The notes under the pieces were generated by a model. It had not been told where the DNA came from. It saw only the letters and a program-made list of their open reading frames with translations, and did not search any database. A stretch of 64,000 bases of DNA, from positions 62,001-126,000 of the forward strand of contig NZ_SDPU01000009.1 of the NCBI RefSeq assembly GCF_004168035.1, in the 5' to 3' direction. A program made the position numbers and the translations under genes. The stretch's first letter is position 1, and each line of letters starts with the position of its first letter. This DNA is from Nocardioides iriomotensis (GTDB lineage: Bacteria > Actinomycetota > Actinomycetes > Propionibacteriales > Nocardioidaceae). Of the stretch, positions 3,145 to 36,433 are shown in pieces.

Positions 3145-3159
3145 GCGGCGGAAAGACTC
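3145..3159 (+). repeat. Array motif copy 4
   Basis: GCGGCGGAAAGACTC. A wide inverted repeat surrounds it: GGCGCGC (3123-3129) / GCGCGCC (3165-3171). No close inner stem is obvious. Confidence 0.8.
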
Positions 3160-3286
3160 AGCTGGCGCGCCGGCCCCTTGAATCGACCGGGATTCGCCCC
3201 AAGGGGGCGGGGCGCGCCGCGGTCCGCGATCAGCCTCAGCAAGGCGTCAGGGCCGACGCTGAGTGGACATCGCGCATCGCTAGCCT

Positions 3287-3739
3287 GTGCCGGTGACTGA
3301 CGAAGATCGGATCGGCGAGCTGCTCGCCGACTTCCCTGTGACGGTGGAGATTCCCGTTGCATGGGGCGACATGGATGCCATGGGCCACGTGAACAACGCC
3401 GTCTACTTCCGCTACTTCGAGACCGCTCGGATCAAGTGCTTCGCGGAGCTCGGCCTGGGCTCGATCGAGCAGTCGGACGGCGTCGGACCAATTCTGCACT
3501 CGGCCAGCTGCCGGTTCCGGATCCCGCTGACTCATCCCGACACCGTGACGGTGGGCGCGCAGATCGGGGAGGTTGGCGACGACCGGTTCGTCATGCGGTA
3601 CCGGGCTGTGAGCCACCAGCATGGTGCGGTCGCTGCAGACGGCGAATCGCTGATCGTCACCTTCGACTACGCCACCGGCAGCAAGGCTCAGGTGTCGGAG
3701 GATCTGGCAGCGCGTCTCCAGGACTTGTGTAAAGCCTGA
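3287..3739 (+). CDS. Hotdog-fold acyl-CoA thioesterase (4HBT/YbgC type)
   Basis: The protein has 150 residues, normal for single-domain 4HBT thioesterases, which hydrolyse acyl-CoA thioesters in the cytoplasm. The family signature is at residues 25-43: V-A-W-G-D-M-D-A-M-G-H-V-N-N-A-V-Y, with the catalytic Asp (D28 or D30) and the HVNN turn, followed by YFRYFETAR. Later strands (VGAQIGEVGDDRFVMRYRAV and ESLIVTFDYATG) complete the hotdog sheet. The substrate cannot be inferred. GTG at 3287 is chosen; a second GTG at 3293 is possible. It is the only gene between array motif copies 4 and 5, and copy 5 begins 35 bases after its stop. Confidence 0.88.
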   Translation: MPVTDEDRIGELLADFPVTVEIPVAWGDMDAMGHVNNAVYFRYFETARIKCFAELGLGSIEQSDGVGPILHSASCRFRIPLTHPDTVTVGAQIGEVGDDRFVMRYRAVSHQHGAVAADGESLIVTFDYATGSKAQVSEDLAARLQDLCKA

Positions 3740-3773
3740 CCACGGCTGGGCGCAGCTCCGAAGTCGCGCCCAA

Positions 3774-4980: not shown

Positions 4981-4995
4981 GCGGCGGATTGACGC
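4981..4995 (+). repeat. Array motif copy 6
   Basis: GCGGCGGATTGACGC. Candidate arms are ATCGCG (4978-4983) / CGCGAT (5014-5019), and a weak inner GTGATC (4975-4980) / GATT-g-AC (4987-4993) with one G-T pair. Confidence 0.85.
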
Positions 4996-5508
4996 AGTTT
5001 TCAACGCGCGCATCGCGATAGATCAGGATGTGTGGAGAGTTCTTCCATTCGGGCGTCGACCATCCAGCAGATAAGAAACAGAGACCGGTTCCACTGAAGG
5101 GTGGGAGAAGAGCTTGGGAAGTAAACCTGGCCTATCCGCGGCTGGACGGTCATCTTGGGCTGCTCTGCTTGGACTCCAGCCCATGGGCTTGCGACCATCT
5201 GTCACAGCTACAAGTCACTATGCAGGCCACACCGCGGACGACAAATACATCGACCTCGTCCCGGATCGGGATCGTCTCCGGTGACTTTGATGATCGGCGG
5301 ATCCGCATTCGCCTTGCCGGAAATGCAGTCGCTCGGACGAAGTCCAGGCAATTCAGCCGAGCCGCCGAGGTACCGACCTTGTTGCTGGTGCGGCCCCCAG
5401 TTGGTAAACGCGTACGTGACGGGGTGCCGTCGATGAGCCGTGGGCGTCACACGCACATGACTCGGTAGTGCCATTGCCGATACCACCTCATCCGCGGAGC
5501 ATGAGGAC
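4996..5508. other. Leader region before the CHAT operon, no convincing gene
   Basis: About 510 bases between array motif copy 6 and the first CHAT gene. Open frames exist on both strands (for example 5028-5468 plus and 5208-5588 minus), but they overlap each other and show no recognisable protein segment or good ribosome binding site. The region probably contains the promoter of the downstream operon; no promoter element is clear enough to call. Confidence 0.5.
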
Positions 5509-7992
5509 ATGGGGGACAACGGGGGAATTGTCGCGGCGGTGGTGTTCAACGCCGACCTGAGCGTCGACGTGGTCGGAGCGGCAATCAACGCGCTCGACCC
5601 TGCCGCCCACGTCGTTTTCGTCGACCACGACCACCGTCCTCCGCGCTTCCTGAAGTTTCAGGCAGGAATCGTTCGGCGAGCGCTTGAACGGGACGAGAAC
5701 TTGTCCGACGTGCGGCACGCCCTGAATCTCGGCAGTGTGCGCGCGGCCCCGACGCTCGACGTTCTCACGACCCCTAATGGTTGGGCGAGCGCGGAGCCGG
5801 GGACGGTCGTGCTCGAGGGTCGGCAGGTGCTCGGGGTGGCGATAGCAGCCGGCGGCACGCGCGGAGTGCCTGTCACGCCCCCGCCGCCCGAACCACCGGC
5901 ACCTGTGGGCTCGCCGCTGGACGCCACTGCTGGCGGCTTGGGGGCCGACGGTGGCGCTGACGACCTTGAGTATGACGAGGGACAGCCCTGGGACGGCCTC
6001 GACGGTGTCGATGTCGACGGTGACGCCGGCTGGGGCGGCAGCGGGCCAGGTGGTGGCGGTAGCGGCCGCCGCGCGGAAGGCGGTGGTGCAGACCGCGGTG
6101 GAGGTAGTCGTGGGCGCCCTGGCGGATATGGCTACACCCCCGGCGCTGGGTTACCGCGGCCCGCCCCACCCGCACCGCCCATGCCCGCTCCGATGTCCCC
6201 GCCGCCTACCGGCGGACCTGACCCCCACCCGATGCCCGCCCCGGTTGGCGACGGGAACACCGGCACGGACCGGGAACCCGAAGACCGGGCCCGGTTCCGT
6301 GCGTTCCCGAGCGCGACGGGACCCGCTGAGGTTCAAGCGGGAGAGTTATTCACCGTCAGTGTCGGCTTCACCACTCAGGCGACCTCGGCGGGGGCGAAGC
6401 CTGTTGTGCGCGCGAACGCGGCACCCGAGCTGACCTTCGAGGTTCAGGCCGATGGGTTCGGGTTCCATTTTCCCGACGGTATCCGCTTGTCGCTCACCGT
6501 CGAGCGGGACAACCCCACGACCGCCAAGGTCGCCATCAACGTCGTTGCAGACGACGTGCCAGTTCCAGTCGATCGGAGCGTCGAGGTGATGTTCTCCATT
6601 GGCGGCGGCGTTGTCGGCTTCGCCTGGTGTGACCTGACCGTGCACCCCGCTCAGCACCCGACCGCGCCAGGTCCCTCCCTTGAGCCGCCGGCGGATGCTG
6701 CTCCTTCGAAGCCGGTAGCTACCGGCAGCGGCGGCGGCACCGCCATCGGCACAGCTGGTGAACCCGCCGACCTCACCGTGACCATCCTGACCAGCCAAGG
6801 GAGCCCGGAGATTCACTGGCAGTTCCACACGCCGTATTCCGTCGATCGCCCCGATGGCCAGGTCACCAACGCATTGCCGGCTGCGAACGCGCAGGCGTTC
6901 GCTGACCAGCTGATGGGTCAGCTGCCCGCGCTCAAGGGTTCCGGCATGCTCGACAACGCAGTGCGCGGCTTGGGGCTCGACGTGTCCGGGGTGTTCCCGC
7001 TGGAGTTCTGGCACGTTCTCGCTGACGTGTGGGTACGCGTGCGGCAGGAGTCGCCGGGCCGGGTGCCGACTCTCATGTTCATCACGAGCGAACCGTTCGT
7101 GCCGTGGGAGCTCGCCTGGGTTGTCGGCGACCAGCATGTTCCGTCGAGTCTTCTGCCCGATGTTGGCTCGGAGGAGCATCGGCAGCTGGGCGTGTTGTGG
7201 TCGATCGGCCGGTGGATAACGCCGGCGCCGCAACCGATGGGTCCCGCGCGACCGGTCACACCTCCCGAGCCGACCATCGACGCCACGACGATGGCGGTCG
7301 TCATCGGTGACTACCAGGGCCCGGGCGTCGAGAAGCTCGTGCACGCCGTCGACGAGGGCAATGCGCTGACGCTGATCTACGACGCCGTCTCGGTCGGCAT
7401 CGACGAGGGCGAAGTGCTCACCCTCATGGACGACCAGCTCACCCGAGACGAGGTCCCGTATCGGCCAGCGGTGGTGCACATGGCAGCGCACGGCAAGGTC
7501 GGACTGACTGCTCAGCAGTACACCGGCATCGTTCTCGGCAACAAGCGCGTCCTCGACCCGTGGGTCATCAAGGGCTCCAAGCTCGGTCGCGAGTCGCGCC
7601 CGTTCGTGTTCCTCAACGCCTGCCAGGTTGGTACCGCCAGCACGGTGTTGAACACGTACGGCGGACTCGCGGCCGCGTTCCTGGTGTCCGGCTGCCGCGG
7701 GTTCCTTGCACCGTTGTGGAACGTCGACGACGACGTGGCCCGTGACCTCAGCCTGCGGTTCTACGAGCAGGTGCTCGATGACGGAGTGAGCGTGGGCGAG
7801 GCGGTCCGACAGATGAGAGCGAGCTTCCTCACCGACCCGGACGCGACCGCATCCGCGACGCCGTTGGCGTACACGTTCTACGGCCACCCGAACCTCGTCC
7901 TGCGCCGGCCCAGGAAACGAGCAAGGCCGCAGGAAACCACCGAGCCGAAGCAGGACCCAGAGGCTCCGGAGCTCACCGACCCCAAGGAGTAG
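5509..7992 (+). CDS. CHAT-domain (caspase-like) protein with low-complexity linker
   Basis: The protein has 827 residues. Residues 1-110 form an unidentified N-terminal domain. Residues about 115-262 are a Gly/Pro/Asp-rich linker. Residues 265-390 look like a beta-sandwich. A further segment precedes the C-terminal CHAT domain (about 580-800). The CHAT catalytic dyad is visible: H661 in HMAAHG and C705 in LNACQVG, followed by GGLAAAFLVSGCRGFLAPLW, as usual for the family. CHAT proteins are clan CD cysteine proteases, often triggered by a sensor and cutting a neighbour protein. ATG at 5509 is used; the upstream ATG at 5501 is out of frame. The next gene starts 4 bases after the stop, so it is the first gene of a three-gene operon. 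Confidence 0.85.
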   Translation: MGDNGGIVAAVVFNADLSVDVVGAAINALDPAAHVVFVDHDHRPPRFLKFQAGIVRRALERDENLSDVRHALNLGSVRAAPTLDVLTTPNGWASAEPGTVVLEGRQVLGVAIAAGGTRGVPVTPPPPEPPAPVGSPLDATAGGLGADGGADDLEYDEGQPWDGLDGVDVDGDAGWGGSGPGGGGSGRRAEGGGADRGGGSRGRPGGYGYTPGAGLPRPAPPAPPMPAPMSPPPTGGPDPHPMPAPVGDGNTGTDREPEDRARFRAFPSATGPAEVQAGELFTVSVGFTTQATSAGAKPVVRANAAPELTFEVQADGFGFHFPDGIRLSLTVERDNPTTAKVAINVVADDVPVPVDRSVEVMFSIGGGVVGFAWCDLTVHPAQHPTAPGPSLEPPADAAPSKPVATGSGGGTAIGTAGEPADLTVTILTSQGSPEIHWQFHTPYSVDRPDGQVTNALPAANAQAFADQLMGQLPALKGSGMLDNAVRGLGLDVSGVFPLEFWHVLADVWVRVRQESPGRVPTLMFITSEPFVPWELAWVVGDQHVPSSLLPDVGSEEHRQLGVLWSIGRWITPAPQPMGPARPVTPPEPTIDATTMAVVIGDYQGPGVEKLVHAVDEGNALTLIYDAVSVGIDEGEVLTLMDDQLTRDEVPYRPAVVHMAAHGKVGLTAQQYTGIVLGNKRVLDPWVIKGSKLGRESRPFVFLNACQVGTASTVLNTYGGLAAAFLVSGCRGFLAPLWNVDDDVARDLSLRFYEQVLDDGVSVGEAVRQMRASFLTDPDATASATPLAYTFYGHPNLVLRRPRKRARPQETTEPKQDPEAPELTDPKE

Positions 7993-7995
7993 TAG

Positions 7996-9528
7996 ATGGC
8001 TGTCCCGCTGCAACCGGTGCCTGTCCCGCTCGGCGACGGAGTCACTCTCGAGGCGCCTGGTCTCACCGGCACCGCTGAACTACAGCCCGGCCTCCTCGGC
8101 GGACGCTCCACGGACGAACCGAACGCCACCCCAGGCTTCGAGGCTGCCCTGAGGGAGCAGGATTTCTACCAGCTACACGCCGTCGAGGTGCGCTCCCAAG
8201 AGGACGCGTTCCCCACCGATGTGCTCCGCACCCGCAGCGGCGCCCCAGCAATGGTGCTGCGCGTACCGGACCTTGGCAGCACCCAGCCGCAGGTCTTGAT
8301 GATGGTCGACGAAGCCGGCGTCGTAACGTGGCACCTGCCTGAAACCGAGGAAGCTCACCCCGGCCAGATCGCGTTCACCGTCGACCGGACCGTCGCGGAG
8401 AACTCTGCGCTCCCCGACGTTGAGGGTGGCGCAGTTGGCGCGGGTGGCGCCGAGACCACCGACCGTGGACTCGTCGCCAAGATCGGTTCCAAGCTCCTGA
8501 CGGTGCTGGTGGTCCCAATCCTCGAGAAGGCCGTCGGCCTCGCCGGCAAGGCAGCCATCAAGGCCTACGAAGACAAGAACCGTCCCCAAGGGATGCGGTG
8601 GATGACCCCGACAGGATTCAGAACCGCCGGCAGCGACCCCGTCCATGACTGGTCCCTGCTTGCCGAAGGACGCACCCTGCTCTTCCTGCACGGAACGGCC
8701 AGCTCGAGCCACGGCGCCTTCCAAGGTCTGCCTGACGCAACCTTCCAACGGCTGCACACCGCCTACGGGGGCCGCGTCCTCGCATTCGACCACCACACTC
8801 TGTCCGCCGACCTCGACGACAACCTCACCGAACTCCTTACCCACCTGCCGACCGGGCGCCGCATCCCGGTCGACGTCATCTCCCACAGCCGCGGCGGACT
8901 CGTCGGGCGCGCCATCGCCGCCGCGATGACTAAGGGTGACGCGCCGCTGGACGTCCGCAGCCTCGTCTACGTCGCCACCCCCAACGACGGCACCCCGCTC
9001 GCTGATCCAGAGCACATCCGCGCCTACCTCGACCGCGTCACCACCATGCTCAACCTGGTCCCGGACGGACCCTGGTCCGTCGTCACAGACACCCTCTCGG
9101 GACTGCTGACCGTCATCCGGTCCCTCCTCGCCGGTGTCGTGCAGGAACTTCCCGGCCTCGCCGTGATGCGACCCGACAACCCCCGACTGAACGAGCTGCC
9201 GTTCCTCGGCAGCCTCGGGGCGACCGAGTACGCCGTCGACGTCGAGTTCGAACCAAAGGGTCGCCTCCTGCGCCTCGTCCGCGGTGTCGATGGCCTCGTT
9301 GACACCGTCTTCGACGACGAACCGAACGACATCGTGGTCCCCACCAACGGCGTCACCCGCGTCCGCAACCGCTCCGACTTCACCGTCGAACCGGCCCGGC
9401 ACGTGGCGCTCGGACAGTCGGAGGCCTCGTGGCACTGCGCCATGTTCTCCCAGGCGCCCACAGGGGAGGCACTCGACAACTGGCTCGCCGCACCACTCGT
9501 CGCCGCGCCCGGCAATGGTCACGGCTGA
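7996..9528 (+). CDS. Alpha/beta hydrolase (lipase/esterase-like), middle gene of CHAT operon
   Basis: The protein has 510 residues. Residues 1-215 are an unidentified N-terminal region that includes a Gly/Ala-rich stretch and a helix near residues 160-185 with hydrophobic character (LLTVLVVPILEKAVGLAGKA), which could contact membrane. The hydrolase domain follows: LLFLHGTASS with H232-G233 (oxyanion side) and the nucleophile elbow ISHSRGG with S298, then LVYVATPNDGTPLA as in PGAP1-like lipases. A His late in the domain (around RHVALG, ca. 470) is a candidate third triad member. Start ATG 7996 is 4 bases after the preceding stop, and its own stop overlaps the next start (TGATG). Flanked by two CHAT genes, it may be their substrate or effector; that is inference. 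Confidence 0.8.
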   Translation: MAVPLQPVPVPLGDGVTLEAPGLTGTAELQPGLLGGRSTDEPNATPGFEAALREQDFYQLHAVEVRSQEDAFPTDVLRTRSGAPAMVLRVPDLGSTQPQVLMMVDEAGVVTWHLPETEEAHPGQIAFTVDRTVAENSALPDVEGGAVGAGGAETTDRGLVAKIGSKLLTVLVVPILEKAVGLAGKAAIKAYEDKNRPQGMRWMTPTGFRTAGSDPVHDWSLLAEGRTLLFLHGTASSSHGAFQGLPDATFQRLHTAYGGRVLAFDHHTLSADLDDNLTELLTHLPTGRRIPVDVISHSRGGLVGRAIAAAMTKGDAPLDVRSLVYVATPNDGTPLADPEHIRAYLDRVTTMLNLVPDGPWSVVTDTLSGLLTVIRSLLAGVVQELPGLAVMRPDNPRLNELPFLGSLGATEYAVDVEFEPKGRLLRLVRGVDGLVDTVFDDEPNDIVVPTNGVTRVRNRSDFTVEPARHVALGQSEASWHCAMFSQAPTGEALDNWLAAPLVAAPGNGHG

Positions 9529-11924
9529 TGACAGTCCTCGAAGAGCTGTACGCCGCGTTCGCACGTGACAACGGTGACGCGCTCCTCGCCGCGCGACCAC
9601 AGTTGGCAACCAGCGCGAACGCCGACGATGCCAGGGCGCACGCCGAAGCCGCGGTCGGGCACGGCGACCCCCAGACAGCGACCCTGTGGGCGCTGGTCGC
9701 GGAGAACCTGTATCACCTCATCGGCAACACCGAGGCGTCGCTCAGTGCCACCCTCCTGCGGTTCTCGGTCCTGTACGCAGCGGCGCAGAACCCGCAGCAG
9801 TACGGCCGCGTGCGAGACGCCCTTCTAAACCTGGCGGACGTGACCGAACGTGCCGGTTACCCCACCTTGAGTGCCGAAGCGCGAGTCACCGCGGCGGACT
9901 GTTCGTACTGGGCGCTCAACGCGTTGCCGTCACCCGACCCGGAGAAGGACCGGCTGGCTCACCAGCTGCTCAAGGATGTTGCGACCGCGTGGACAGGTGG
10001 GGACGTTCTTGAGTCGATGCAGTTGGAACGCCTCGGGTCCTTGAGCGTGGAGTGCCTGAACGTGTGGCTCGAACGTGTCGAGCTGCTCTACGACGAGGAA
10101 CCACGAGACCTGGCTGGACGCATAGTCTTGGCTACGCACGCGTACCTGCCCCTGGACGTCTTCGATCGCCCAGACGGCGCCGAGGGCCGCTCCGTAATCG
10201 CGGCTCGTCTCGCTCGGGCTGCCGTCAGGCTCGGCCTGGACCTCACGAAGGACACCGAGAACCCGGACGGCACGCTCGTCGACCGGCTGCGCGTGGCGCT
10301 CGACCTCGCCGAGCAGGACGGCCAAGACGACGCATGGGCGATCGTCTGCCAAGCAATCCTTCAGGACGTGGGGGACGCGTTCGACCCGGGCAAGCTAACT
10401 GCACTGCGTGGACGGTTCTACCGTTCCCAGGACCATCGCGGCCGGTTCCGCAGCCGGCTAGGGCGGCTCGCGGGTGCAGCATCGTTCGATGAGCTCGTCG
10501 GTGCCGACCTCAGCAACCTCGTCGACGCCGAGGTTCCGGATGTGGAGCAGATCTTCAATCTCGCCGAGACGGCTGCCGCCCGCACGCTGCTCGACGGGCT
10601 CCACGGGCTGTTAACGACTCCTGACGATGAGCTGTGTCGAACCCTGGAGCGCGCCGCCACCGATTTTGAACAACCCGAACACGACGACCTGCTGCGCCGC
10701 GAGATGCGTCTACTGAGCGAGCTGCCGGTCGCGTCCACGGACGTTCTCGCCCAACTGGAGGACCGTTACGCCCAGCTGGACGCTGGGTTCATCGGCACCG
10801 CGGAAACGGCCGCCCTTAACGACGTGCAGGCGCTGCTGTCGCCCGGGGAGCTGATGGTGCGGTACGTGCTGCCCTACCGCTGGTCACACCCGGCCTACCG
10901 ACCCGGCGTTGTTGTGGCCACGCGCGAGGACGCCGTCTTCGTGCGGCTGCCTGAGCTGGGGAGTGGCGATGTGACCGGCAAGTTCGTCATCGGCGGCCGT
11001 AGCCCGCTAGACGTCAGTCCCTTTGTCGACGCGTTGTTCGACGCGCGCGGTGCGGTCTCCGGTGTCTCAGGACGCGGTGCAGAGGCACACGAGCTTCTCA
11101 CCGTGCTCGATGACTTGTTGCTAGCGCCGGTGCGCGCAACAGGTCTTGCCGAGGGCTGCGACCGCTGGGTACTCGTCCCGCAGCGGTCCTTGCATCTCGT
11201 CCCGTGGATGGCCCTGGTCGACCGCAATGGACACTGGCTGCTGGACGAAGCCAAGGTGACCGTGGCTCCTAGCGCATCAGTATGGGCAACACTGCGACAA
11301 CGCGCCCGACGGTCAACTGGCAGGTTGGGATTTCTCGCAGACCCCTTGGTTGGCTACGCGGGTCTGCCGCAGCTCCCCGGAGCCATGAGCGAGATGTCCG
11401 CGGTCGCGCTGGCCTGGCGGTCGCGTGGCCTCCACGTCGAGGAGTTCCCCCAGGAAGACGCAACATACAAGGCGCTCGCGAACGCCGGCGCAGCCAGCGA
11501 CGTCCTAGTCATCGCGGCGCACGGCTCGTTCCCTGGTGATGCGGCCCTCTTCGACCACCAGCTGCTGCTCTCGCCCAACCTGGAGCACCCCGGCCCCGTC
11601 ACCGCCGATGCACTCAGGCGGCTGGATCTTTCTGGCGTGTCCTGCGTCGTCCTGAGCGTTTGTGACGGTGGTGCCTATCGCGTTGGCCGAGGCGATGAAC
11701 CGTACGGCCTCGTCCCGGCGCTGCTGGAGGCCGGGGCGCGGTCAGTGATTGCCGCCCAATGGGCGGTGGACGACGAGCGGACGCGCGCACTGATGACGCG
11801 CACCGTGGAGTTGCTCGCTCAGGTAGATCCCGCCGAGGCACTCCAGCGCGCATGCCGAGAGCACCGCAAGACCTTGTCGAGTGAAGAGTGGACTCATGCG
11901 GCGTTCCTGAGCGTGGGCGGCTAG
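9528..11924 (+). CDS. CHAT-domain protein with helical N-terminal region
   Basis: The start is ATG 9528, overlapping the preceding TGA (TGATG), which gives 798 residues. Residues 1-450 are rich in Ala/Leu/Glu helices spaced like TPR-type repeats. The C-terminal CHAT domain spans about 560-795: H665 in VIAAHGSF and C712 in LSVCDGG, then GLVPALLEAGARSVIAAQW and AVDDERT, all typical positions. TPR-CHAT proteins act as sensor-protease units in several systems. Here the helical part may sense a partner or ligand, and the protease may act on the hydrolase or the first CHAT protein; neither is shown. Array motif copy 7 starts 28 bases after the stop. Confidence 0.85.
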   Translation: MTVLEELYAAFARDNGDALLAARPQLATSANADDARAHAEAAVGHGDPQTATLWALVAENLYHLIGNTEASLSATLLRFSVLYAAAQNPQQYGRVRDALLNLADVTERAGYPTLSAEARVTAADCSYWALNALPSPDPEKDRLAHQLLKDVATAWTGGDVLESMQLERLGSLSVECLNVWLERVELLYDEEPRDLAGRIVLATHAYLPLDVFDRPDGAEGRSVIAARLARAAVRLGLDLTKDTENPDGTLVDRLRVALDLAEQDGQDDAWAIVCQAILQDVGDAFDPGKLTALRGRFYRSQDHRGRFRSRLGRLAGAASFDELVGADLSNLVDAEVPDVEQIFNLAETAAARTLLDGLHGLLTTPDDELCRTLERAATDFEQPEHDDLLRREMRLLSELPVASTDVLAQLEDRYAQLDAGFIGTAETAALNDVQALLSPGELMVRYVLPYRWSHPAYRPGVVVATREDAVFVRLPELGSGDVTGKFVIGGRSPLDVSPFVDALFDARGAVSGVSGRGAEAHELLTVLDDLLLAPVRATGLAEGCDRWVLVPQRSLHLVPWMALVDRNGHWLLDEAKVTVAPSASVWATLRQRARRSTGRLGFLADPLVGYAGLPQLPGAMSEMSAVALAWRSRGLHVEEFPQEDATYKALANAGAASDVLVIAAHGSFPGDAALFDHQLLLSPNLEHPGPVTADALRRLDLSGVSCVVLSVCDGGAYRVGRGDEPYGLVPALLEAGARSVIAAQWAVDDERTRALMTRTVELLAQVDPAEALQRACREHRKTLSSEEWTHAAFLSVGG

Positions 11925-11951
11925 CGATCACCCAAACGAAATGGTCCGGAT

Positions 11952-11966
11952 GCGGCGGAAAGATGC
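11952..11966 (+). repeat. Array motif copy 7
   Basis: GCGGCGGAAAGATGC. Only a local CGGCG / CGCCG pairing (11954-11958 with 11966-11970) is visible; no wide arms. Confidence 0.75.
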
Positions 11967-12132
11967 GCCGTCGAAACCCACTCGCATGGGCAGATCGGGT
12001 TTCTTGCCGCGCCGAGCAAGGCCGGCGCACACCGACACCTCTGCGCCCCCGACACGAGACGGCCCGGCACCTCATCCGAGTGAGGGGTGCCAGGCCGTCT
12101 GCCGCTACGAGCGACGCGCCATGGGGTGAACG

Positions 12133-13794
12133 TCAGCGCCGCACGGTCACGCACCTCTGCTTGGACCACTTCGTCCAGCCGCCTGGGGTCTCACCGCGCG
12201 CCTGGTAGCACCGCTTCTCGCCGCGCTTGCGGGTCACGTCCTTGAACCGCTGGCCGTCCCTGACCGCGACGGTCTTCCAGGCGCCGGACCGCTTTCCGTT
12301 GTCGACGCGGGCCCGGACCTGCCAGTCGGAGGCGTACGCCCACGTGGTGTTGAAGGCGATCGTGTAGGACGGGCCGACCTTCCGGTTCGTCGGTCGCGTC
12401 ATCTTCGTGACTGCCCGCGGGGCGTCGAACGTGGTCGCGTAGACGCCGCGGCCGTCGTTGGTGACCAGCGTCAGGTCGCCGTTTCCCCGCGGCACGCCCA
12501 GCGTGGAGTCGGACCAGGAGTCGGCCGTGACCGCGGGGGCGACCGTGAGCCACTTCGTCCAGCCGGACTTTCCAGCTGCCAGGTGCTTTATGCGCGGCGA
12601 CGACCAGCGGTCGGTGCGCGGCTGTGTGGCGATGGTGATCGTCCCGGACGGCGCGACCGCCCAGTGGATCTGCGAGTCGCGGGTGCCGCCGATGAACGTC
12701 GGCCGTTCGAGGTACTTGCCCTGCGGCCGGTTCTCCTGCCACAGCACCAGACCGGCGCCGTCGTCCGCGATCCTCTCGCGCCACCCGATCGTCAGGTCAC
12801 CGCGGCCGTCGACCACGACTCGTGGCGCGTCGAGCGTGGTCACGCCTGCCTGCTGGGGCAGCGGGCCAGCGAGCACCCGGCGGTTGCCGGTGGCGAACGT
12901 GTCGGTCGCGTCGTCGGTCGAGAGGTCGTGCAGAACCACGCTCTGGTCGTCGGTCTGAGTGACGATCCGCTCACCCTTGGTCGTGGACGCGAAGTCCGCG
13001 AACCGCTCGTCGTCCGCGACCTTCTGCGGGTCCGACCAGTCGAGTTGCGCGCCCGGGTTCGAGCCGATGATCCCGGTCCGCTTGTCGCGGCGGGCCGCCA
13101 TGAGGTCGCCGGTGCCCTGCTCGGTGTAGAAGGCGAGCATGCGGCCGTCGTTGTCGTACTCGTAGAACGGGCCGGATGCGATCGGGGCGCCCTTCGACAC
13201 GTCGTACGCCGACTCCGGGTTGGCGCGCCAGCCCGCGTGCCAGCCGTCGTTGCCGGTCTGCCCGTTGACCCACTCGTAGACGTTGCCGGCGTAGCGGATC
13301 ACACCGAGAAAGCCGCCGGTGCCGGACCCGCCGGTCATCACCGTGACCTTCGGCTGGACCCCGGCAGCGGCTGCGCCCAGGTCGGTGTCGCTGGCCGTCG
13401 ACGCACGCGCCGGGTGCGTGAAGCCGTGAAGGCGCCCGTTGGAGACGTAGGCGCCGAACGTGTGCCCGGTGCTGCCCGTTTCGTACGTCAGGTCTGTGAC
13501 AGCCGCCGGCAGATTCGCCGGGTTGCGCCACACGCCGTCATTGCTGCGTTCCCGCAGCCGCCAGGTCTGCGAGTCGTCGGCGTCGCGGCCGAGCTCGCGG
13601 GCCATGAGCGCCCACGCCGACCGTCCGGTGGCGAGTTGCAGGGCGGCCTCGTCCACGCCCGCCTTGAGCGCTCTCTTGCCGGACCAGTCGCTCCGGTCGT
13701 TGTCGCCGGCGGACGCGCTCGGTGTGGCCACGCCGACCACGCCGACGGCAAAGACCATGGCGGCGGATGCGCCGAATCGGCGTCTTGCTTGCAT
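12133..13794 (-). CDS. Secreted propeller-like protein, paralogue of the gene at the left edge
   Basis: The start is ATG 13794 (MQARRRFGASAAMVF), chosen because GGGGGAG lies 8-14 bases upstream and a clear signal peptide follows (basic start, hydrophobic core, cleavage near ASA-GD). The mature protein of about 520 residues has repeated beta-strand units and a C-terminal domain shared with gene 1-1320 (NTTWA, WQV, RGEKRCYQAR, WSKQRCVTV), probably held by a disulfide. It is an exported protein of unknown activity; sialidase- or lectin-like propellers are a structural guess. It lies alone between array motif copies 7 and 8 and is transcribed against the motif direction. The longer frame up to 13872 lacks a ribosome binding site. 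Confidence 0.78.
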   Translation of the reverse strand: MQARRRFGASAAMVFAVGVVGVATPSASAGDNDRSDWSGKRALKAGVDEAALQLATGRSAWALMARELGRDADDSQTWRLRERSNDGVWRNPANLPAAVTDLTYETGSTGHTFGAYVSNGRLHGFTHPARASTASDTDLGAAAAGVQPKVTVMTGGSGTGGFLGVIRYAGNVYEWVNGQTGNDGWHAGWRANPESAYDVSKGAPIASGPFYEYDNDGRMLAFYTEQGTGDLMAARRDKRTGIIGSNPGAQLDWSDPQKVADDERFADFASTTKGERIVTQTDDQSVVLHDLSTDDATDTFATGNRRVLAGPLPQQAGVTTLDAPRVVVDGRGDLTIGWRERIADDGAGLVLWQENRPQGKYLERPTFIGGTRDSQIHWAVAPSGTITIATQPRTDRWSSPRIKHLAAGKSGWTKWLTVAPAVTADSWSDSTLGVPRGNGDLTLVTNDGRGVYATTFDAPRAVTKMTRPTNRKVGPSYTIAFNTTWAYASDWQVRARVDNGKRSGAWKTVAVRDGQRFKDVTRKRGEKRCYQARGETPGGWTKWSKQRCVTVRR

Positions 13795-14148
13795 CGAAGG
13801 GTCTCCCCCTGAATCGAGACTCGAAAGCTCGACCTTATCGAGCGAGTCACACCCGTCACATGGGTGCCACACCCCATGTGACGCGTCGACGATGCACGAA
13901 CGTCACACGGAAGGCTGACCCGGGGAGCAGGTCCCACTCACGCTGCTCAATCGCTCATCGGCTGCTATGACAGCGAATGTCTGCGCCCCGTCGCGGCGGA
14001 TCGACGCAGACCGGACCGGGGGCTGGTGAGATAACTGCTAAGGCGCGGTCCGCCTGTGGGTGTGCTCGCACGGGCGGCGTCGATGACGCGGGTCGCCTCC
14101 AAACCTTGGGGCTCGACCATTACCAGGTTGCGACTCCCCGGAAGGGGG
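13795..14148. other. Intergenic region with array motif copy 8
   Basis: Some 350 bases between two minus-strand genes. It contains the promoter side of gene 12133-13794, motif copy 8 with its arms, and a GC-rich stretch at 14071-14091 (GGCGGCGTCGATGACGCGGG) that loosely resembles the motif. No gene is seen. Confidence 0.5.
13993..14007 (+). repeat. Array motif copy 8
   Basis: GCGGCGGATCGACGC. Inner CGTC (13989-13992) / GACG (14003-14006) with a 10-base loop, the same geometry as copy 1, and outer GTCTG (13979-13983) / CAGAC (14007-14011). This is the best-folded copy. Confidence 0.88.
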
Positions 14149-27090: not shown

Positions 27091-28671
27091 TTATTTGCCG
27101 GGCCGACACGGGCAGCCGAACGCGATGTCGCCTAGGCGCTCGGCGCTGATCCGACCGCATCGGCCGCATTCCGTGCGGTGCGGGTCGTCGGGCAGCGAGG
27201 GGCTTGTGAGCGGTCCGAGGTAGATGAATCCGTTCTCGCTCGCGATGGTCTGCGCATGCTCGAAGGGCACGGGCTCGAACCGGGCGAACCGCCCCGCCAG
27301 TGCCCGCGATTGCTCGGCCCACGCTCGCCAGTAGCACGCCCGACACGTTGCCTCGCTACAACCGTTCTTCTCGAGGACGTACTCGAAGCGGTAGTGGGCG
27401 ACGTTGCTGCAGGCCTTGCACCGGGTCAGCAGGAAGTCTTGGGGGTGAGTGAACGACTCCAGCGCCTCAAGGCCACCGACATCGAGGATGGCCGCGATGT
27501 GGGCATCGCAGTACGTCGGCCTGCTCCATGTCCTGAATGCGGCAGTGTCCCCGCACCCTTCAACCGAACAGACCTGGCCCACGGGCTTTCGTTCGCGCCG
27601 TAGCGGCTTCGGCGGCTTCGGCGGCTTCGGCGGTACTGGGATCGGGCGTCGATCGAGGGGTACTGAGCGCAACGGATTGCGGTTCGGCGCAGCGCTGGGA
27701 ACCGGCTCTTCGAGCAGGAGGTCTTCGATGACGGTGAGTGCCTTGCCGTCGAGACACCGCAGGAAGTCGTCCTCCGTCATGACCTCGATCGCTTGGCCGT
27801 TGTCCTGCAGTTCGAAGGCCTTGCGCGCTTTGCCGGTCAGGTTGGAGCCGGGGCGCAGGACGGCCGGGTTGATGTCGCCGATGACGAGGACGTTGGTCTT
27901 CTTCGTTGTGTTCTGCTCGGGAATCGCGCCGACGCGGGCGCATTCTTGCCGAGCGATGTCGCGAGTCATCGACATAAGGGTTCCGGTGAACACCACGACG
28001 CGTCCGTAGAGGTAGCCGTCCGGGTCGGCGTCCGGGTTGACCTCGATGGGCGTGAAGCCACGACTGCCGGTGCCAGTCGCAACGCTGCCTTGGTAGGGGC
28101 CGCTGCTCATGCATCCAATGGACATGCTGTGGGCGGCCGCGAGGTCAGCCAGGTCTTGCACGCCCGCCGCGTCGGCCAAGGCCGTGACGATGCCGACGAC
28201 ACCGTGCGCGTCCGCCAGGGGGTCATGGTGATCGCCCATCGCGAAGCCCAAGGATTCCGCCACGTAGGGCAGCCGGTAGGACGGCAGGCTGAGCGCCCGG
28301 CGGGACATGGCCATGGTGCAGAGGAAACGCATCTCGGGCCATTCGATGTTGTCCACGGCGCAGGCGTAGCGGATGACGCCGATGTCGAAGCCCGCGTTGT
28401 GAGTCACCACGACGTCGTCTGCGACGTACTCCATGAGTGCCGGCAGCACGGCGCGCCATCGGGCTGCTCCCTGCACCGTTTCTGCGTCGATGCCGTGGAG
28501 AGCGGTGTTGAAGCCGTCGAAATAGTCCACTTGCTCGGGTGGCCTGATCAGCCAGCGCTGCTCGTCGACGGGCCGGCCGTCGCGGACACGAACCAGCCCG
28601 ACGGCGCAGGGCGAGCCCCGGTAGGAGTTGGCGGTCTCGAAGTCGATGGCGGTGTAGTCGAGCACCGTCAC
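27091..28671 (-). CDS. DnaQ-like exonuclease fused to BRCT and zinc-binding regions
   Basis: The protein has 526 residues. Residues 1-175: DEDDh 3'-5' exonuclease (DYTAIDFETAN with the first Asp/Glu, VVTHNAGFDIGVI, and DHHDPLADA with the His-x4-Asp). Residues about 220-320: a BRCT domain like that of DNA ligase (GRVVVFTGTLMSMTRDIARQ, QNTTKKTNVLVIGD). Residues about 335-370: a basic Pro-rich linker with the repeat KPPKPPKP. The C-terminal 150 residues carry several CxxC pairs (CSVEGCG, CDAHI, CKACSN, CRACYW, CGRCGR), probably zinc ribbons. The start is GTG 28671, overlapping the preceding gene. It acts on DNA or RNA ends, and this architecture suggests repair or defence. Confidence 0.85.
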   Translation of the reverse strand: MTVLDYTAIDFETANSYRGSPCAVGLVRVRDGRPVDEQRWLIRPPEQVDYFDGFNTALHGIDAETVQGAARWRAVLPALMEYVADDVVVTHNAGFDIGVIRYACAVDNIEWPEMRFLCTMAMSRRALSLPSYRLPYVAESLGFAMGDHHDPLADAHGVVGIVTALADAAGVQDLADLAAAHSMSIGCMSSGPYQGSVATGTGSRGFTPIEVNPDADPDGYLYGRVVVFTGTLMSMTRDIARQECARVGAIPEQNTTKKTNVLVIGDINPAVLRPGSNLTGKARKAFELQDNGQAIEVMTEDDFLRCLDGKALTVIEDLLLEEPVPSAAPNRNPLRSVPLDRRPIPVPPKPPKPPKPLRRERKPVGQVCSVEGCGDTAAFRTWSRPTYCDAHIAAILDVGGLEALESFTHPQDFLLTRCKACSNVAHYRFEYVLEKNGCSEATCRACYWRAWAEQSRALAGRFARFEPVPFEHAQTIASENGFIYLGPLTSPSLPDDPHRTECGRCGRISAERLGDIAFGCPCRPGK

Positions 28672-32871: not shown

Positions 32872-33912
32872 TCAGGCGGGCACTCTGGCGTTCAGCCGGG
32901 ACTCAACGAAGTCGGTGAACATCGACGTGTCGGCGTAGTAGTTCGGGTATGCGGCCTGAAGTTGGCTGATCCGGGCGATATTCACGAGGACGGCGTCGAG
33001 GTCGTCGTCGTTTAGCGCCTCCAACTCCGTCAGGCGTGCCTCCGCCTCGGCCATGGTCTCGTGCACAGAGACCGTCAGTTCCCCGGCCGCGCGGCGAAGC
33101 TCCAGCGTCAGGGCGTTGCGCCGGTCGCTTGTCGCGTGGTCGCCCACGATGGCCGCGTAGCCGCGCAAGCGGCCGACGATGCCCAGCCGCTCTTCTAGAC
33201 CCGCCAACTCCTCTAGCAGTTCGGGTACGGGCGACTCCGCGCCGGGCACCGGGGCGGTGCCCTCCTCGATGGCCATGAGCGAGCTAACCAGGGCGAAGAA
33301 GCGGATGACGTCGTCCTCACCCTTGCTGTACTTCAACTCACTGCCTGAGAACAGGTCCATCGTCTCGACGGCGGTCGCCCAGGCGTGCTGCAACTGGGTA
33401 CGGACCTGCAGTTCAATCCTGAGTCCGTGATACTCGGGCTTGGAGGCGCCGTACTCATAAGCGAGATGCACGCCTCGGTAACCCGAGCGCTTCGGTCCCG
33501 GGTCGTCGTGGAGGTAGTCGTACACGCGGGTGACCCGATTGCGCGAGCGCGGGAGGTCTCGCAGTACTTCGACGAGCTGCTCGACCTCCTTCACCGACTC
33601 GAAGACGACCCTGCAGCCCCCTAGGTCATGCATGGTGGTCACGCTCATCGTCGGGATGCGGACCAACTTGTCGAGGATGGTCGGAAGTCGCTTGAGCCGC
33701 TGGGCGACAACCGCGTTCGGGTTGACGGCCAAGGCTTTCTGACGGACGGTTACCGTCACCGCGTTCAGTGGGAAGGCGTGCGCGCTTCGAAAGTTGCTCA
33801 GGACGGCGCGGGCCTCAGCCAGTTGCTCAGGCGTGCCCTTGCCCTTGCCGACAAGTTTGCTCGCACGGCCGACCGCGCTCTTCGAGTACTCGGGGACGAC
33901 GCGGGCGACCAT
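32872..33912 (-). CDS. RelA/SpoT-domain protein (nucleotide pyrophosphokinase-like)
   Basis: The protein has 346 residues. The synthetase-type domain lies at about 75-200: VTTMHDLGGCRVVFESVKEV with the metal-binding Asp, RVYDYLHDDPGPKRSGYRGV (the YRGVH loop that stacks the acceptor base) and ELQVRTQLQHAWATAVE with the catalytic Glu. No HD hydrolase, TGS or ACT domain is seen. The C-terminal 130 residues are helical. Stand-alone RelA/SpoT proteins make (p)ppGpp or related alarmones, or modify tRNA ends as toxSAS toxins. Location in an integrase-bearing accessory region fits a toxin or phage-defence role, but the length is larger than typical small synthetases. Confidence 0.85.
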   Translation of the reverse strand: MVARVVPEYSKSAVGRASKLVGKGKGTPEQLAEARAVLSNFRSAHAFPLNAVTVTVRQKALAVNPNAVVAQRLKRLPTILDKLVRIPTMSVTTMHDLGGCRVVFESVKEVEQLVEVLRDLPRSRNRVTRVYDYLHDDPGPKRSGYRGVHLAYEYGASKPEYHGLRIELQVRTQLQHAWATAVETMDLFSGSELKYSKGEDDVIRFFALVSSLMAIEEGTAPVPGAESPVPELLEELAGLEERLGIVGRLRGYAAIVGDHATSDRRNALTLELRRAAGELTVSVHETMAEAEARLTELEALNDDDLDAVLVNIARISQLQAAYPNYYADTSMFTDFVESRLNARVPA

Positions 33913-34186: not shown

Positions 34187-34528
34187 ATGCATACGAGGAA
34201 GAATCGGGATCGCGTGCAGGCGAGCGCATGCAGGGGTGTGGGCTGCTTCGAGTTGGCAACCGTGCGAGTTCATCTCGGCGATGACTCAATCGACCTCTGC
34301 CCTCTGCACTGGCAAGAGCGCCGCGCATCGCCACAAAAGCGACTGGTCGTCGAGAAAGAGTTGTCACGTCCGACCTGCTTCAAGCTGGAGTGCCGCGCGG
34401 ACGCCGTGTCGGGGATGACTCATCTCGACGGTCGCTGCCTTCCGGTTTGTGAACAGCACCTGGAAGACCTCAGCTGGGTAACTCCGAGCCAGCGGGAACT
34501 GGCAGCGCTCGGTGGCCAGCATGAGTGA
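34187..34528 (+). CDS. Small protein with two Cys/His zinc-knuckle motifs
   Basis: ATG 34187 with AGAGGAGG directly upstream gives 113 residues. Two similar units are visible: CRGVGCFELATVRVH followed by DLCPLHW, and TCFKLECRADAV followed by CLPVCEQHL. Each has a C-x4-C...C-x2-H pattern, so the protein may bind two zinc ions. The family is unknown. Its stop overlaps the start of the excisionase-like gene, so it belongs to the integration module upstream of the recombinase. Confidence 0.6.
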   Translation: MHTRKNRDRVQASACRGVGCFELATVRVHLGDDSIDLCPLHWQERRASPQKRLVVEKELSRPTCFKLECRADAVSGMTHLDGRCLPVCEQHLEDLSWVTPSQRELAALGGQHE

Positions 34529-34826
34529 GGCCACAGTCAGCCGCGCGCCCTTTCAGAGCCAGCAGGCGAACGAGTCGGCCGTCAGTGATCAAGAAAGTCC
34601 GCTCAGACATCACCAGTATGTCCGTCCAGCGGCTGCGGCGGGGCGTCCTCGGAGTCACCTGACTGTCGCGGATGTTTGCGATGAACTCGGAATATCGAAG
34701 TCGACGTTCTACGACTGGCGCGCAGCCCACAAGGCACCGTGCTGCATCCGCTTACCCAATGGTTCGCTGCGAGTCCGCCGTGCCGACCTCGAGCGCTGGC
34801 TGAGTGAGTGCGAAGAGCCGGCGTGA
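34521..34826 (+). CDS. Excisionase-like helix-turn-helix protein
   Basis: ATG 34521 (MSEATVSRAP) gives 101 residues. Residues 50-98 form a MerR/AlpA-type helix-turn-helix: LTVADVCDELGISKSTFYDW, then IRLPNGSLRVRRADLERWL, the classic excisionase/DNA-binding pattern in which a recognition helix is followed by a wing ending in RRxDLExWL. Such proteins direct excision by a partner recombinase. It overlaps the preceding gene by 8 bases and the integrase start overlaps its stop (GTGA). Confidence 0.85.
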   Translation: MSEATVSRAPFQSQQANESAVSDQESPLRHHQYVRPAAAAGRPRSHLTVADVCDELGISKSTFYDWRAAHKAPCCIRLPNGSLRVRRADLERWLSECEEPA

Positions 34827-36205
34827 GCGAGACAACTTACGACGTGCGCATCTGGACCATCCACCAGTACAAGGGTGCGCGCAGGACGACCTACACGGCC
34901 AAGTGGCGAGTTGGCGGTGTCAAGCACCAACGGACGTTCGCCACGGCGAAGCTGGCCGAAGCCTTCCGCACGAGTCTTTTGGTCGCCACCCGCGAGGGGA
35001 TGCCCTTCTTTGTCGACGATGGGCTGCCCGCGAACCTACGAGCGAAGCAGCCCGAACAATCCTGGCTGCAGCACGCGATGGCTTACGTCGACGCCAAATG
35101 GCCGACAGCCTCAGCGAGGCACCGAAAGGGCATCGCGGAGGCGTTGACCGACGCGACCGTGGTCCTTCTAGGTGTGAACCCGACGGGTGTAGATGCGACT
35201 CAGTTGCGATCCGCCCTGTATCGTTGGGCGTTCAACTCGCAGGCCCGAACGGGTCCGCTGCCTCCGGGGCTTGAGGCGGCCGCCGCATGGGCGGAGCGGA
35301 GCTCCCCGTCACTCGCCGTCATGGCGGATGCGACTCGGCTTCGCGCTGTATTGGATCGGTACGCCCGGAGGCAGGACGGCAAGCCCGCTGCCCCCGCGAC
35401 GGTGGCTCGCAAGCGTGCCACCCTTCACAACGTCCTGGAGTACGCGGTGGAGCTCGAACACTTCGACAGCAACCCACTTAAGAAAGTGAAGTGGAGGGCG
35501 CCCAAGGCCACTGACGTGGTGGACCGTCGTGTCGTCGTCAATCCGGCCAAAGCGAGGGCACTACTCGAGGCCGTGTGGCAGCAGGATCCCGCGGTCGCCG
35601 CCTTCTTCGCTTGCATCTATTACGCCGGCCCGCGCCCCGCTGAGGTGCGTGCGCTGACGATCCATGACTGTTCCCTGCCCGACTCCGGCTGGGGTCAGCT
35701 CACGCTGGTCGGTAGTCAACAGACCTCGGGGTCAGCCTGGACAGACGGAGCGACCCCTACCGAGGAGCGAGGACTAAAGCACCGCAGCACTCGGGACACT
35801 CGATTGGTCCCGGCTCATCCCGAGCTCGTCGCGGCGCTCCGACGCCACCTCGACCACTTCCAGGCGGGCGCCTCTGGGCAGCTGTTCGTTGCCCGTACCG
35901 GGCGGGCCGGGGTCCCGATCTCACCCCCGTACGCCAATCCCGTCGACACGGGGACGATCTACCGCGCCTGGCACCGCGCGCGGGCTGCTGCCCTAACCGC
36001 GCGGGAGTTCGACTCCATGCTGGCTCGTCGGCCGTATGACCTGCGCCACGCCTGCCTGTCGACCTGGCTAAACGCCGGCGTCCCGCCCGCACGGGTCGCG
36101 GAATGGGCCGGACACGGCGTCGACGTCCTCCTGCGTGTCTACGCGAACTGCGTCGAAGGGGACGATGAGATCGCCCTCGGGCGCATCGAGGGGGCGCTCA
36201 GATGA
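34823..36205 (+). CDS. Tyrosine recombinase/integrase
   Basis: GTG 34823 overlaps the excisionase stop and gives 460 residues. The N-terminal arm-binding region (residues 1-55) has IHQYKGARRTTYTAKWRVGG, then a core-binding SAM-like domain, then the catalytic domain. Catalytic residues visible: R271 in YAGPRPAEV, R408 and H409 context in YDLRHACLSTWL, H431 in EWAGHGVDV and Y440 in LRVYANC. A Lys near the beta hairpin (about 315) fits the fifth residue. It lies 145 bases from the 3' end of tRNA-Tyr, the usual target of such enzymes, so it probably integrates an element there. Whether it also acts on the array motifs is unknown. Confidence 0.93.
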   Translation: MSETTYDVRIWTIHQYKGARRTTYTAKWRVGGVKHQRTFATAKLAEAFRTSLLVATREGMPFFVDDGLPANLRAKQPEQSWLQHAMAYVDAKWPTASARHRKGIAEALTDATVVLLGVNPTGVDATQLRSALYRWAFNSQARTGPLPPGLEAAAAWAERSSPSLAVMADATRLRAVLDRYARRQDGKPAAPATVARKRATLHNVLEYAVELEHFDSNPLKKVKWRAPKATDVVDRRVVVNPAKARALLEAVWQQDPAVAAFFACIYYAGPRPAEVRALTIHDCSLPDSGWGQLTLVGSQQTSGSAWTDGATPTEERGLKHRSTRDTRLVPAHPELVAALRRHLDHFQAGASGQLFVARTGRAGVPISPPYANPVDTGTIYRAWHRARAAALTAREFDSMLARRPYDLRHACLSTWLNAGVPPARVAEWAGHGVDVLLRVYANCVEGDDEIALGRIEGALR

Positions 36206-36350
36206 GGCTCCGACCGCGCCCACTGCGCAAAGTTCCTTCCATATTCCTTCCAACTGCCCGCAAACGACCGTTCACAGCCGCAACCAGCCGGACATGCGAG
36301 AAGGACCCCCGAGCCGGGAAAGTCCCAGGTCAGAGGCCCTTCTCTGTGTG

Positions 36351-36433
36351 TGGCAGGTGCAGGATTCGAACCTGCGTAGGCGTAAGCCGACGGATTTACA
36401 GTCCGCTCCCATTGGCCGCTCGGGCAACCTGCC
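36351..36433 (-). tRNA. tRNA-Tyr (anticodon GUA)
   Basis: On the minus strand an 83-base tRNA folds with acceptor GGCAGGT/ACCTGCC, discriminator A, a class II long variable arm, anticodon GTA in ACTGTAAAT, and a normal T loop (GGTTCGAATCC). CCA is not encoded. Its 3' end points toward the integrase at 34823-36205. No second copy of the tRNA 3' end was seen in the window. Confidence 0.93.

Follow-up and report, generated by a model that had tools for sequence, protein, structure and literature searches.

A tRNA-Tyr integration module beside a putative directional cassette array in Nocardioides iriomotensis, and a Xer-like recombinase linked to such arrays

The window analyzed here is a stretch of 64,000 nucleotides from Nocardioides iriomotensis in which three overlapping plus-strand genes run up to a tRNA-Tyr gene. 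The first gene of this int operon (34187-34528) encodes a small Cys/His protein of 113 amino acids, the second (34521-34826) encodes an HTH_17 excisionase-like protein that is a probable directionality factor, and the third (34823-36205) encodes a tyrosine integrase of 460 amino acids. The overlaps are 8 bp and then 4 bp, as in the preliminary description; the reading frames are given as listed, and longer alternative starts exist. The complete tRNA-Tyr gene (GTA; 36350-36433, minus strand), recognized by a tRNA search, is the integration target. It lies 144 bases from the integrase stop codon and is followed on its right by yajQ. The integrase product matches Pfam Phage_integrase (PF00589, E 1.1e-6) and the phrog_1 integrase family (5.5e-29). 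The middle product matches HTH_17 in Pfam (E 2.5e-13) and the phrog_66 excisionase family (1.2e-10), and reaches 24.7 bits against TIGR01764, an excisionase family, short of the cut-off of 28.8. These matches confirm the recombinase and excisionase-like identities proposed earlier. The first protein has no family match in Pfam, NCBIfam, or PHROG and is assigned no function. Its earlier label of zinc knuckle is withdrawn, because the two Cys/His clusters read from its sequence are CX4C...CX2H and CX4C...CX3CX2H, not CCHC.

Homologues of the integrase at E<=1e-20, with up to 8 candidates scored per genome, were found in 19 of 197 relatives, the own genome included. Their 19 loci (L021-L039), taken with flanks of up to 1.5 kb, contain tRNA-Tyr in eight cases and tRNA-Arg in one, and ten are without a tRNA. 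In the eight, tRNA-Tyr lies about 140-220 bp from the end of the integrase match, and in genomes G080 and G109 the integrase stands directly ahead of yajQ, as in the window. The HTH protein has a homologue in 13 of the 19 loci; tblastn found the Cys/His protein in none of them. A phage origin of the integrase was considered and rejected: none of 50,697 phage records matched, and a search of viral contigs with peptide patterns, able to detect close relatives only, also found no such integrase. Eight plasmid records matched, seven from Streptomyces and one from Nonomuraea. The gene trio is an ICE-type integration module and, taken alone, adds a new but otherwise ordinary example to the known tRNA-integrating elements. 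As in AICEs and ICEs, a tyrosine integrase is combined with an adjoining excisionase-like gene and with insertion at the 3' end of a tRNA gene. SLP1 inserts at tRNA-Tyr. One published account names an SLP1 integrase subfamily (PMC3218068). The integrase of the window would recombine the chromosomal tRNA-Tyr gene with an attP that contains the 3' half of tRNA-Tyr, restoring the tRNA at the right end and leaving a 3' fragment behind at the other, and the HTH protein would probably direct excision.

The attachment repeat at 36285-36405 (plus strand) of the window recurs at C46:42626-42746, with 94% identity over 121 bp. It covers the tRNA-Tyr 3' half from the anticodon loop onward, plus the terminator. 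The second copy was expected outside the window, and it does lie there, on contig C46 and not to the left on C47. Integration at tRNA-Tyr, with the trio at the right border, is supported both by this copy and by the homologue loci with tRNA-Tyr. On C46 the order is terminator, tRNA fragment, and TrwC relaxase gene, as would be expected at the distal border of an element that carries int on the right. The relaxase gene (C46:42890-45856, E 4.6e-85) counts toward an ICE only on the condition that the element includes C46. It is adjoined by a gene for a CAP12/Pycsar-type TIR effector (C46:46052-46984; L004:3453-4385). C47 carries a VirD4-type coupling protein (T4SS-DNA_transf, E 2.9e-35) and TrbL (E 3.6e-6), and its region at about 22-33 kb contains the coupling-protein, TrbL, M23-peptidase, and DnaB-like genes; no VirB4 was recognized among the ORFs scanned. 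The C46 repeat is probably the other end of the element. The position of the left-flank gene of this copy does not support that assignment: in G002 this gene is some 1.5 Mb away from tRNA-Tyr, and at E<=1e-100 it was not found in 11 of 13 genomes. We infer that a single element spans C46 and C47, with a length of more than 115 kb if the two are contiguous. The TrwC relaxase, VirD4-type coupling protein, and TrbL would set it apart from AICEs, which transfer with an FtsK/SpoIIIE-like protein according to the same account (PMC3218068).

In four other genomes (G002, G003, G086, and G111; L051-L054), the genes beyond tRNA-Tyr have no counterpart on the own contigs and, on visual comparison, are not alike among themselves. 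The tRNA-Tyr locus resembles an integration hot spot. In the same four genomes, empty-site synteny gave scattered weak matches to the own contigs only, besides the genes on the yajQ side.

The window also contains part of a cassette array (1413-32157, plus strand), delimited by a matrix scan at score >=12 and by alignment. Its 17 core sites share one orientation and start at 1413, 2088, 2367, 3145, 3774, 4981, 11952, 13993, 15363, 15879, 17511, 18392, 18779, 26980, 29368, 30450, and 32141; no minus-strand site occurs in the window at score 12. The last site is 2.05 kb from the first gene of the trio, in agreement with the 2 kb estimated before. A RelA/SpoT-domain gene (32872-33912, minus strand), matching the candidate defence family PDC-S33 (356 bits) and phrog_4773, is located between the array and the int operon. 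The core, GCGGCGGAWWGACGC, is directional and about 15-17 bp long, with imperfect inverted arms GCGGC/GACGC. The consensus from 172 sites of the own genome and related loci is W-N-GCGGCG-R-W-W-W-GACGC-R, in which the arms flank a 5-base center. The matrix was trained on 41 plus-strand sites (scores 11.7-28.6) hand-picked from matches with up to 3 mismatches, leaving out minus-strand matches and matches in genes such as C47:48397 and C47:87557.

Pattern searches located clusters of the motif on C47, C3, and C10 of the own genome. In an unselected scan of these three array spans, which were drawn from the hits themselves, all 45 sites at score 12 are plus-oriented and none is in a gene called by our custom codon-usage script. 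The genes of the three arrays lie on both strands (plus/minus 7/25, 7/5, and 10/3). Outside the spans, the rest of the 265.5 kb of own contigs fetched holds 2 sites at score 14. One of them, at C46:42494 (plus strand, score 17.1), is an array-like core about 130 bp to the left of the C46 tRNA fragment, at the end of L003. An attC hairpin model was examined for the sites and is weak. When 41 sites were folded with one of the two energy sets, DNA or RNA, z was below -2 in four and no consistent hairpin was found. An exact inverted partner arm is present in 20 of 172 sites, a weak excess over the controls (mean 7.7, maximum 12). By its sequence, the short palindromic core would fit a double-strand tyrosine-recombinase site.

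In a few cases, homology between cassettes has an edge at the core. Two cassette pairs of the own genome are homologous from the first core base in both copies, with 72% identity over 873 bp and 82% over 256 bp, and the cassette at 11952-13992 (plus strand) is related in this way to one at C47:59557. Among 39 non-recombinase homology segments, two start at sites in both copies, for which chance is about 1e-4 per segment, and none of the 39 ends at sites in both copies. The cassette at about 3145-3773 (plus strand), with a thioesterase gene (3287-3739), has a homologue in G315 that is 86% identical in the matched part, where the similarity sets in slightly within the first core and extends into the following one. 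The G315 homologue has no site at score 12, and its cores are too degraded to score. Across the thioesterase homologue loci L131-L136 and L138, a site at score 12 is present in L135 only, and L131 (G315) is the only one whose edges resemble those of a cassette.

The enzyme that works on these sites could be sought in the neighboring integrase, and the preliminary description asked whether it acts on the array sites in addition to the tRNA. The integrase gene flanks the array and points away from it, in the manner of intI. In addition, the looser 15-base core occurs at least once in all 6 family genomes with the integrase versus 62 of 114 without it (p 0.036), a weak association. Against this, the exact 17-base motif is present in 13 of 197 genomes, and 12 of these 13 lack the integrase at E<=1e-20 (up to 8 candidates scored per genome); the sole exact-motif genome with the integrase is the window's own. 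Within the 69 kb scanned in G080, the integrase and the closest site are about 62 kb apart, and in G109 the contig with the integrase (48.8 kb) is free of sites at up to 2 mismatches. The attachment region at the tRNA scores -0.1 on the array matrix, where random windows have a median of -1.4 and a 95% point of 4.1. A scan of 77 kb around the 19 integrase homologues, with flanks of about 1.5 kb, also found no array site; it is uninformative because no site appears around the own integrase either when that locus is trimmed to an equal flank. With another recombinase linked to the arrays (below), a double role of the window integrase is very improbable. It was rejected as the array recombinase on the motif distribution, G080, G109, and the attachment score, and the array is most likely not worked by it. 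Array motifs in genomes without this integrase family, named in advance as evidence against the shared role, are what the 12 genomes display.

The own genome has four PF00589 matches, namely a XerC-like gene (C14), a XerD-like gene (C16), the window integrase, and a fragment lying within the array on C3. This fragment forms the end of a gene of about 300 codons that carries a frameshift and belongs to a family of Xer-like recombinases of about 303 amino acids, here called ArrR. Full-length relatives lie inside arrays of G003, G010, and G074, where there are two. A scan of named genomes gave 31 ArrR loci, mostly from Nocardioides. The other hosts are Jiangella, Ornithinimicrobium, an Intrasporangiaceae bacterium, and Mumia, together with MAGs labelled Mycobacterium, Aeromicrobium, Pimelobacter, Nocardioidaceae, and Micrococcales. 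The preliminary description had held that a separate, dedicated recombinase beside the array start would count against a shared enzyme. Such a recombinase does exist, in another array (C3) and not beside that of the window.

ArrR is linked to the sites in a fixed orientation. In the 540 kb of the 31 ArrR loci, 98 sites are antiparallel to ArrR and one is parallel; the reversed matrix gave 5 matches and 20 column-shuffled matrices gave 0-5. At score 16, 27 of the 31 loci have at least one site and four have none. Only 2 of the 99 sites are in called genes, though 60% of the sequence is coding. ArrR is antiparallel to the sites in 34 of 34 loci that have both, own C3 included, and in three further ArrR loci the direction is undefined because they are site-less. 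At score 12, 19 of the 31 loci, and not the other 12, have a site at a distance of 99-172 bp upstream of the ArrR match, and relative to ArrR, 59 sites lie before it and 39 after it. ArrR itself is common to 27 of 32 loci and is the only widely shared gene; the next cluster is found in 5, and no companion gene occurs in more than 5 of the 32.

The stop-free ArrR genes (21) have a median dN/dS of 0.12 over 210 pairs, with a maximum of 0.43. Among them His-x-x-Arg and Tyr are kept in 20, the first Arg in all 21, and the Lys of GKG in 19. ArrR-like genes at E<=1e-40 are present in 30 of 197 relatives, down to clearly more distant ones. G002, G111, G114, and G117 have site clusters but no ArrR at this threshold, and the own arrays on C47 and C10 are without ArrR on the contig. 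Plasmids contributed 794 records with ArrR matches, 793 of them below 60% identity; in viral contigs no ArrR was confirmed. XerC and XerD were also tried as the array enzyme and rejected. A tblastn search with C14 and C16 in 13 array regions, picked for holding pattern matches or ArrR, gave a single C14-like gene (in G033), and otherwise found ArrR genes and one 23-residue piece.

The motif could instead be a regulator-binding, segregation, or other directional motif beside which ArrR genes have merely settled. A short core without a consistent hairpin would suit such a role, as would the several arrays in genomes without a close ArrR. The sites, however, are clustered in islands, intergenic, and independent of the direction of the genes; their 98:1 orientation against ArrR and the homology edges at cores, in the own cassette pairs and in G315, further argue against it, and we regard this reading as unlikely. 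It could also be supposed that ArrR is a small mobile unit that targets the core, the cassettes being assembled by another enzyme. Among ArrR loci, homology is lost at the stop codon on one flank of the gene and close to the core on the opposite flank; with sites on both sides of ArrR as well, the gene may itself be mobile. Two ArrR copies in G074 are 91% identical. The reading that another enzyme assembled the cassettes has to contend with the fixed antiparallel order of ArrR and sites and with the lack of any other gene common to more than 5 loci, and it is rather unlikely. By eye, several of 21 ArrR loci (among L099-L123) have a CGCCCASWATGGG-like stretch about 20-60 bp past the ArrR stop codon, a possible terminator or second end of a unit.

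The explanation that we favor with good confidence is that two systems are nested here: an ICE-like tRNA-Tyr module and a cassette array served by its dedicated recombinase, ArrR. The array would be a row of gene cassettes separated by the directional core. ArrR would most likely bind directly repeated cores and join them by strand exchange. Circular cassettes would enter at the core beside the ArrR gene, or at other cores, and leave again by excision, and the site 99-172 bp before ArrR would be attI-like. The own arrays are probably frozen, or served in trans, because the own ArrR gene is frameshifted. Arrays without ArrR, such as those on C47 and C10 and those of G002, G111, G114, and G117, would resemble CALINs, and an ICE-like element would carry one of them and could transfer it. 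With less assurance, we lean toward a wider reading, in which Nocardioidaceae and some other actinobacteria possess an independently evolved integron-like platform. In this platform, ArrR would capture and shuffle cassettes at short cores of the double-strand type, not at folded attC hairpins, and conjugative elements would spread the arrays between genomes.

Like integrons and CALINs, the arrays have directly oriented sites that separate diverse genes and a tyrosine recombinase linked to them; a site resembling attI precedes the recombinase gene, and some arrays are without a recombinase. They also differ from integrons in several respects. On TIGR02249, the model of integron integrases, whose cut-off is 265, two ArrR proteins reach 49.1 and 41.5 bits. 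Integron attC sites have the boxes GTTRRRY/RYYYAAC, whereas by inspection the short core lacks them, as it lacks a consistent hairpin. In addition, the array genes occupy both strands and sites are found on both sides of ArrR. As judged from these comparisons, the array system appears to work like an integron, but its recombinase is not an IntI and its sites are not attC. ArrR also resembles Xer proteins: its best NCBIfam models include XerC (98.2 bits) and XerD (88.1 bits), and its best PDB match is XerD (1a0p). In contrast, these scores are far under the equivalog cut-offs of 335 bits for XerC and 330 for XerD, and the own genome has other Xer-like genes, C14 and C16. The shufflon with its Rci recombinase likewise combines several short sites with one tyrosine recombinase; its sites are inverted, unlike the 17 of 17 in the window that point one way.

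A survey reported no complete integron from Actinobacteria (PMC9024848). A literature search of largely open-access papers, judged by title and the start of the abstract, found no description of such arrays. The array system would matter more than the integrase trio. If the explanation is true, the system is an analogue with another recombinase and another type of site, and cassette capture arose more than once. The short core could then be tested as a genetic tool, and it could serve to annotate gene islands in the family, where the 15-base core has 200 matches and at least one in 68 of 120 genomes (counts transcribed by eye). Outside the family, 28 core matches in 22 of 77 genomes compare with 38 control matches, also counted by eye. 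The window array, if it lies inside the ICE-like element, would be a mobile array without a recombinase.

Several genes and segments of the arrays deserve a separate mention. The 7-kb array segment at 4981-11952, without internal sites at score 12, contains a gene for a CHAT-domain protein (6406-7992). The array cargo also includes an exonuclease-domain gene (RNase_T, DEDDh-like; 27091-28671), whose product has a partial match to the candidate defence family PDC-S48. Internal tandem copies of about 170 bp are present in an array segment of a related locus (L123:11696-12900).
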